64,000 nucleotides of DNA, taken from Phytoactinopolyspora halotolerans. GTDB lineage: Bacteria; Actinomycetota; Actinomycetes; Jiangellales; Jiangellaceae. Below the pieces are notes generated by a model. It worked only from the letters and a program-made list of their open reading frames with translations, did no database searches and had not been told where the DNA came from. Positions within the stretch are counted from its first letter, which is position 1. Each line of letters begins with the position of its first letter. This document shows positions 52,701 through 53,934 of this stretch, piece after piece. The DNA is taken from the NCBI RefSeq assembly GCF_010550675.1, contig NZ_JAAGOA010000005.1, positions 171,524 through 235,523 on the forward strand, given 5' to 3'. A program made the translations under genes and the position numbers.

Positions 52701-53235
52701 AACAGCCCCTTTAATGGGTCGAGTGGGCTCGGCATCATCGCTCAGAGATGGAACCGAGCGCCATACTTTCACAGAGAATCTCTGAGCGAGCAACAGTGAC
52801 GCTATCCATACGATTCGAACCGTGTCAAACCTTTACTAAGGCATGTTTCTATTAGTGGTCCATATGTTCATGACGTGTCCACGAGGACGTTAACGGCGTC
52901 ATACGAATGGACGATGCCGACGCGACGTGGCACGAGACACCGCAGCACACAGCAATATGGACGACTCGAGACAGTACATCTGATTCACCCATTGAGCCCC
53001 AACTTGTCCGAGTTAGACAGATAGGGGGCCCAGCTTCCCTGTCGCGCCGGTTTCGCACTGGGAATGCAGTATGCCGGGATGATCGGAGTGAACGTCAAGC
53101 GAAACGGCACGTTTGTTGTTGACTTCTTACTTGACAGTTCGAATTGACAAGTCAAACATTGTTCCCGCGTACACACACCGAACGCATGTTGCCGCGCTTG
53201 CGGCAACAGTCGCAGAGTCAAGGAGAGAGCACAGC
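52701..53235. other. AT-richer divergent intergenic region
   Basis: 535 bp without a convincing gene; noticeably richer in A and T than the rest of the window, most clearly 52740-52900 and 53100-53170. It must carry the promoters of the two divergent secreted-protein genes. Three TTGAC repeats at 53119, 53131 and 53144 (spacing 12 and 13 bp) sit about 90-115 bp before the 53236 start and may be -35 boxes or an activator site. I saw no known riboswitch pattern. Confidence 0.6.
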
Positions 53236-53934
53236 GTGTTCAAGAAGACACTTCGCAGCGCACTCATCGCCGCGGCCGCCCTGGTCACGGCCACTGGGTT
53301 CGCCAGCACGGCAGTGGCCGCCCCGCAGGCGCCCGCCGCATCGAGCGAGGCGACCGTGAGCGACGCCACCGACCTGGAGAGCGTCCTGGACGTCCCCGAC
53401 GTGAACATCGGCAACGACCTCTGTCTGCTGCCGTGGTTCTGGCCGGGTCCGTTCAACGTGCTCACCAAGGACCAGATGGGCAGCTACTCGGCGTGCAACG
53501 GTAGCGGCTCGTCGGAGTCCAGTGAGGGCATCAACATCCTCAACGACGCGTGCATCGCGCCGTGGCTGTGGCAGGGCCCGTTCAACGTTCTGACGGACGG
53601 CCAGGAAGCCTACTACGAGGCCTGCAATGACTACACGGCCGCGGACAGCTTCGCGAACGCGATCGCCCAGTACATGACCATCGAGTACATGATCGATTCG
53701 GAGATGCTGGACGAGTCGATGTTCGAGCAGTTCCTCGCCGGCGAGGTCACGAGCCACGAGGTCATCCAGGACGAGGGCGTGACCGAGGAGTTCGAGGGTC
53801 TGCTCCCGGAGGAGGAGATCACCGACGAGGGCGGGCTGATGAACAACGCCTGCGTTCTGCCGTGGCTGTGGCAGGGCCCGTTCAACTTCCTGACGAACGG
53901 CCAGTACGCCGACTACCAGGCCTGCAACGGCTGA
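53236..53934 (+). CDS. secreted protein with three Cys-framed PWxWxGPFN repeats
   Basis: About 232 residues. Signal peptide: KKTLRSALIAAAALVTATGF, cleavage near residue 28 (TAVA-APQ). The mature protein holds three 30-residue repeats at 60-89, 103-132 and 203-232. Each starts N-[DN]-x-C-x2-PW-[FL]-W-x-GPFN, continues VLT/FLT..Q, and ends YxAC-N; the two Cys are always 23 residues apart. A 70-residue very acidic linker (EFEGLLPEEEITDEGG and similar) separates repeats 2 and 3, and repeat 3 ends at the C-terminus. AAGGAG is 10 nt before the GTG. I know no described family; repeated disulphide loops with exposed Trp suggest binding to a glycan, a surface or itself. Confidence 0.8.
   Translation: MFKKTLRSALIAAAALVTATGFASTAVAAPQAPAASSEATVSDATDLESVLDVPDVNIGNDLCLLPWFWPGPFNVLTKDQMGSYSACNGSGSSESSEGINILNDACIAPWLWQGPFNVLTDGQEAYYEACNDYTAADSFANAIAQYMTIEYMIDSEMLDESMFEQFLAGEVTSHEVIQDEGVTEEFEGLLPEEEITDEGGLMNNACVLPWLWQGPFNFLTNGQYADYQACNG
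53413..53931 (+). repeat. three 90-bp intragenic coding repeats
   Basis: Copies at 53413-53502, 53542-53631 and 53842-53931. Copies 2 and 3 share an almost identical stretch (GCCGTGGCTGTGGCAGGGCC and onward), whereas copy 1 is more divergent. Identity at DNA level suggests fairly recent duplication of copy 2 or 3 or gene conversion between them. Confidence 0.85.

Follow-up and report, generated by a model that had tools for sequence, protein, structure and literature searches.

The gene studied here lies on the forward strand at 53,236–53,934 (stop codon included) of the window, by which we mean the whole 64 kb stretch of DNA that was analysed, and belongs to a member of the genus Phytoactinopolyspora (Jiangellaceae, Jiangellales). 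It starts with GTG and encodes a protein of 232 aa. Residues 1–29 (53,236–53,322) were called by eye as a signal peptide, based on a basic and hydrophobic N-terminus ending in AVAA. Repeat alignment placed three units at residues 57–89 (53,404–53,502; Cys63/Cys87), 100–132 (53,533–53,631; Cys106/Cys130) and 200–232 (53,833–53,931; Cys206/Cys230), the second and third being 61% and 55% identical to the first, and all following the pattern N-x2-N-x2-C-x2-PW-x-W-x-GP-x-N-x9-Y-x2-C-N. The six Cys of the protein all fall within the repeats, with 23 residues between the two members of each pair. An acidic linker at residues 133–199 (53,632–53,832), recognized by its net charge and by alignment to three orthologues, separates repeats 2 and 3; residues 134–199 carry a net charge of −19, and K78 is the sole basic residue of the mature protein. 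The protein ends in YQACNG, with no LPXTG motif and no membrane segment. A previous sequence-only reading had described three Cys-framed repeats with an acidic linker, a signal peptide and two Cys 23 residues apart. The translation agrees on each of these points, the signal peptide again being judged by eye and the Cys pair being invariant in the larger set of units described below, and the repeat length, given there as 30 residues, was corrected to 33.

The divergently oriented neighbour P0002 (51,477–52,700, reverse strand) encodes a secreted protein of 407 aa from a family that also includes stalked, LPDTG-anchored paralogues. The same reading had taken this neighbour for a secreted protein without known function and the shared promoter region for an AT-richer one; indeed, the protein was secreted-like, a Pfam or NCBIfam match was lacking even at E up to 10, and GC content was 52% at 52,750–53,249 vs roughly 65–72% around it. 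A promoter-like element preceded each gene. That of the repeat gene, CTTGACA-N17-RAnnnT, was found on the forward strand at 53,130–53,159, 106 bases before the start codon. That of P0002, on the reverse strand at 52,798–52,828, read TTGACA ... GGATAGCGTC and was kept in four Phytoactinopolyspora genes, including that of the window, and in G005, a genome of the Jiangellaceae without the repeat family; the form common to them was TTGACA ... GGATA(G/A)CGTC.

The window protein could not be assigned to any named family, as the sequence-only reading had anticipated, since no match in Pfam, NCBIfam or PDB sequences passed the cut-off. At E up to 10, Pfam gave just two sub-threshold matches, to unrelated families, and NCBIfam and PDB sequences gave none. 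Genome searches, which scored a capped number of first-look candidates per genome and from which distant relatives could escape, recovered homologues in related species. Of 99 relatives' genomes searched with the full protein (its own counted), 19 gave a match, all within the 22-genome family Jiangellaceae, which includes Phytoactinopolyspora endophytica, P. alkaliphila, P. limicola, Jiangella species, Haloactinopolyspora alba and a metagenome bin. A repeat profile search of actinobacterial genomes, proposed in the earlier reading, pointed to the same lineage: the profile of 29 units matched 20 of 393 genomes of the class (19 Jiangellaceae and G329, from family f17), a second draw of 393 class genomes gave 18 Jiangellaceae and again G329, and a phylum-wide search of 396 genomes with a mixed profile matched only the gene of the window itself.

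Within f17, the mixed profile at E 0.01 matched 5 of 250 genomes, four of them from the genus g122 (G329, G469, G488, and G505). A match in G565 of the same family (E 0.006) lacked the Cys pair and was set aside as chance. The g122 genomes had 4–5 matches each, to small secreted single-unit proteins of about 40–50 residues when mature, some of them in tandem pairs (L067–L085). Comparison of the repeat profile with the g122 type gave an hhalign probability of 96.8 (E 2.5e-10 over 23 columns), which supports homology of the g122 domain and the Jiangellaceae repeat. Both have a signal peptide and two Cys, but the g122 proteins contain one unit, with C-x3-PW instead of C-x2-PW and two residues fewer before the Tyr. 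The g122 genomes showed no anchored form.

Across the window and 14 named loci, both Cys stood at identical spacing in 88 of 88 PW.W.GP units from multi-unit ORFs. Orthologues of the window gene were present in four further Phytoactinopolyspora genomes, and dN/dS was ∼0.25 (0.108/0.433) against the P. endophytica orthologue, ∼0.46 against that of P. alkaliphila and ∼0.45 against that of P. limicola, values indicative of purifying selection. Because all 88 units keep the Cys pair and because of these dN/dS values, the ORF is more than a product of chance, and a non-coding ORF was likewise ruled out. A mobile or phage origin was also rejected: neither the 72,556 plasmid records nor the 50,697 phage records searched contained a match at E 1e-5, no viral-contig match was confirmed, and the locus is syntenic in relatives. 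The PW-repeat proteins are a real, undescribed and lineage-restricted family of surface proteins.

Two forms of the family were distinguished. The free form, SHORT, to which the window gene belongs, has three units in Phytoactinopolyspora and two in Jiangella and Haloactinopolyspora, and was found in 19 of the 22 Jiangellaceae genomes. The other form, LONG, occurred in 17 of these 19, so that 17 of the 22 genomes carry both, and is absent from the window genome (G000) and from P. endophytica (G002). In the LONG genes of named loci, six units were counted in 11 of 11, with adjacent units exactly 42 residues apart in 35 of 55 cases. The repeats lead into an acidic stalk of the (DVDA)n or (DGTEV)n type. 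LPDTG, a hydrophobic segment and a basic end followed in 9 of the 11 genes; of the two others, L091 leaves its contig and L098 shifts frame within the stalk. In the one LONG protein scanned, from P. alkaliphila, the TIGR01167 LPXTG_anchor model passed (16.8 bits; cut-off 15.9) and PF00746 scored 17.0, under its cut-off of 20. Sortase genes were present in 21 of the 22 genomes. The sequence-only reading had suggested an exported surface or matrix protein, a suggestion strengthened by these paralogues, in which the repeat sits on a stalk that ends in an LPDTG anchor. That reading had gone on to propose that the repeats may expose Trp to bind carbohydrate, a hydrophobic surface or further copies.

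Two irregularities were observed among Jiangella LONG genes. In L031 and L098, a frame change in the repetitive stalk drops the anchor from the frame, which may reflect either slipped-strand variation or a fault in the assembly. In contig C1, the single contig of G018, the LONG and P0002 genes appear twice in the same orientation, close to the two ends at ∼8–11 kb and 7.474–7.484 Mb, probably representing an unresolved terminal overlap.

The CTTGACA element was first seen by aligning the upstream DNA of orthologues. CTTGACA-N17/18-RAnnnT was located 85–107 bases upstream of the start codon in 24 of 24 genes (12 SHORT and 12 LONG, from three genera), and CTTGACA occurred just twice in the window, both strands counted, with one occurrence at the SHORT gene. 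A genome-wide scan with a strict form of the pattern returned 18 sites in 11 genomes, 13 preceding PW-repeat genes and five elsewhere, the latter in surroundings without a common theme; the reversed pattern, used as a control, gave two matches in the same genomes. Only SHORT and LONG genes were matched in three Jiangella genomes (G010, G015, and G018), as were two of the three sites in Jiangella gansuensis (G014), and G001, G005, and G011 had no sites. The pattern was drawn from the PW-repeat genes themselves, so that only its rarity elsewhere counts as independent evidence. On this basis SHORT and LONG are probably members of a single small regulon and, since both carry the same promoter, would probably be made together.

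Structure prediction was of low confidence. AlphaFold gave a mean pLDDT of 43 for a repeat pair (25 sequences) and of 36 for the mature protein (4 sequences), the latter with a two-strand hairpin per repeat at pLDDT under 50. No structural claim is therefore made, and fold and assembly draw no support from the models.

Chaplins are the textbook solution by which hyphae are raised into the air; they assemble at air–water interfaces, are needed for aerial growth, are controlled by BldN, and have a sortase signal of the class E, LAXTG type. Like the repeat family, the chaplins (ChpA-H) of filamentous actinomycetes are secreted small domains with two Cys per domain, and occur within a single genome both as short free proteins and as long, sortase-anchored proteins of several domains, a combination that the window genome does not share. 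The two differ in Cys spacing (24 apart in the PW repeat vs 18 in four aligned chaplins), in the long form (six domains and LPDTG vs two domains and an LAXTG-type signal) and in composition, the PW repeat being Trp-rich and much less hydrophobic (mean GRAVY of −0.04 over 80 repeats vs 0.50–0.70 for four Streptomyces-type chaplin domains). The window protein had no PF03777 match at E up to 10, and hhalign against four chaplins gave a probability of 0.3; membership of the chaplins was rejected. Chaplins have been defined by GN motifs 12–13 apart, two Cys and a strongly hydrophobic domain (PMC13251363). The PW-repeat unit has no series of three GN motifs and falls outside this definition.

The PF03777 chaplin profile matched none of the 22 Jiangellaceae genomes, compared with nine of 22 other class genomes used as a control, including 4 of 4 from f19 and 4 of 4 from f17. 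J. gansuensis, described as forming a well-differentiated, non-sporulating aerial mycelium (PMC5292007), carries SHORT and LONG and no chaplin match. Published surveys depict chaplins as patchy outside streptomycetes (PMC4255298). G329 of the genus g122 had PF03777 matches alongside the single-unit homologues, so chaplins and the repeat family are not always alternatives. CwpA and CwpB of the filamentous actinomycete Actinoplanes missouriensis are non-chaplin, lineage-specific, sortase-anchored proteins thought by their authors to make hyphae hydrophobic, and are reported to lack homologues of significant identity within their own genome (PMC13251363). They set a precedent for lineage-specific anchored surface proteins other than chaplins, but have a different Cys pattern, and differ from the present family, whose free and anchored forms have one repeat in common. 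The open-access papers searched yielded nothing on Jiangella chaplins or Jiangella cell wall-anchored proteins, no title on such proteins for Jiangellaceae, Jiangellales or Phytoactinopolyspora, and no report of expression, localisation or phenotype for the repeat family.

The best explanation, which we hold tentatively and at close to an even chance, is a lineage-specific coat composed of soluble SHORT and wall-tethered LONG copies of one self-associating or adhering repeat. The window protein would represent the short, free type in a family of Jiangellaceae envelope proteins whose 33-residue repeats are each framed by a Cys pair that probably forms a disulphide. Sec would export SHORT, which would remain extracellular, either soluble or as part of a matrix, and in most relatives LONG would present six repeats atop an acidic, low-complexity stalk tied to the wall by sortase. 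The repeat would most likely self-associate, or bind a shared ligand on the surface, such that free SHORT, probably co-expressed with LONG, may build a layer onto the wall-tethered copies around the hyphae, as an outer layer or an adhesive matrix. The secretion signals, anchoring signals and common promoter elements on which this scheme draws are read from the sequences of these genes. Such a division of labour would be that of the Streptomyces chaplins, reached with an unrelated domain. As no LONG exists in the window genome or in P. endophytica, SHORT must work there alone or with another anchor. The missing LONG in the window genome weakens the simplest version of the coat and, together with the low hydropathy of the units, counts against a plain hydrophobin-like role.

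It is possible, though on balance doubtful, that the repeat is instead a head that binds a sugar, a wall polymer or an environmental surface, with LONG a stalked multivalent adhesin, SHORT a free cross-linker or decoy, and no binding between copies. Trp, Pro, and Gly are invariant in each unit, and the architecture of LONG, with six heads in tandem above a long acidic stalk and LPDTG, recalls the MSCRAMM proteins Sdr and Clf, which likewise combine a head, a low-complexity acidic stalk of the dipeptide type and an LPXTG anchor. The matches of Sdr/Clf to LONG, however, concerned the stalk alone (residues 371–506) and were far below the cut-offs, no Pfam or NCBIfam carbohydrate-binding or adhesin head domain passed its cut-off, and no ligand is indicated. 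A GH20-like neighbour was considered as a clue to a sugar and rejected, because in G005, where the repeat gene is missing, disA, P0002 and the GH20-like gene directly follow one another; its adjacency is therefore no evidence for a sugar ligand.

The P0002 family offers a further, unlikely explanation, a two-component envelope complex: the repeats would do the binding, and P0002-type proteins, whether free or anchored, would serve as the structural partner. A search of 70 genomes recovered relatives of P0002 in 19, all of them Jiangellaceae and including G005, with zero matches in G007, G008, and G013. LPDTG was read directly in the stalked paralogues of G000 and G001, and the copies in G002, G003, and G005 were cut by contig ends. 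The stalked forms (L118, 3,638–5,797, reverse strand; L119, 8,258–10,174, forward strand; L121, L122, and L123) lay partly beside other stalked secreted proteins. Both lineage-specific, the ectodomain families of the repeat and of P0002 each exist in free and anchored versions and have stood side by side in two settings. SHORT and P0002 form a divergent pair in the window, P. endophytica, P. alkaliphila, and P. limicola, and in G001 an anchored P0002-type gene directly follows LONG. Over the last ∼449 bases these two genes (L119, 6,116–7,588 and 8,258–10,174) are 88% identical in DNA, so that stalk and anchor are held in common, which suggests module swapping or gene conversion. Additionally, G000 and G002, which have no LONG, each carry a stalked P0002-type paralogue. 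Against a complex, the promoter elements of the P0002 genes differ from those of the repeat genes, G013 contains the repeat family but gave no P0002 match (possibly an assembly gap), and in Jiangella one syntenic region (TetR, ppx-like, methyltransferase, radA, disA) includes the P0002 relative, LONG and SHORT, though not as direct neighbours. The co-occurrence of the two genes, which the sequence-only reading had singled out as a check, thus held for the window pair and for the paralogue beside LONG in G001 and broke down in G005; because the P0002 family is present there without the repeat family, the link is not obligatory.

It is very improbable that these are secreted antimicrobials, protease inhibitors or signalling proteins with no structural role, for although such proteins often contain small Cys-framed repeats and the short g122 relatives with their tandem pairs would fit, the six-unit paralogues are anchored to the wall, the 80 repeats contain four Lys/Arg in total, unlike typical antimicrobial peptides, and no immunity-like partner was noticed beside the window gene.

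A bolder form of the coat explanation, which we consider rather unlikely as a whole, is that the family is a non-homologous Jiangellaceae counterpart of the chaplins: a free and tethered pair under a private promoter, whose Trp-rich, disulphide-framed repeat would self-assemble into a sheath letting hyphae leave the substrate, possibly with the free and anchored P0002 family co-evolving alongside. Free plus sortase-anchored surface proteins are already known in actinomycetes as a kind; what is new here is an undescribed family. Even if its role is adhesion, a new Cys-framed surface domain has been defined. For formers of aerial mycelium such as Jiangella, in which no chaplin was matched, the repeat family provides a concrete candidate replacement and, if it is indeed one, sheath systems would have arisen more than once.
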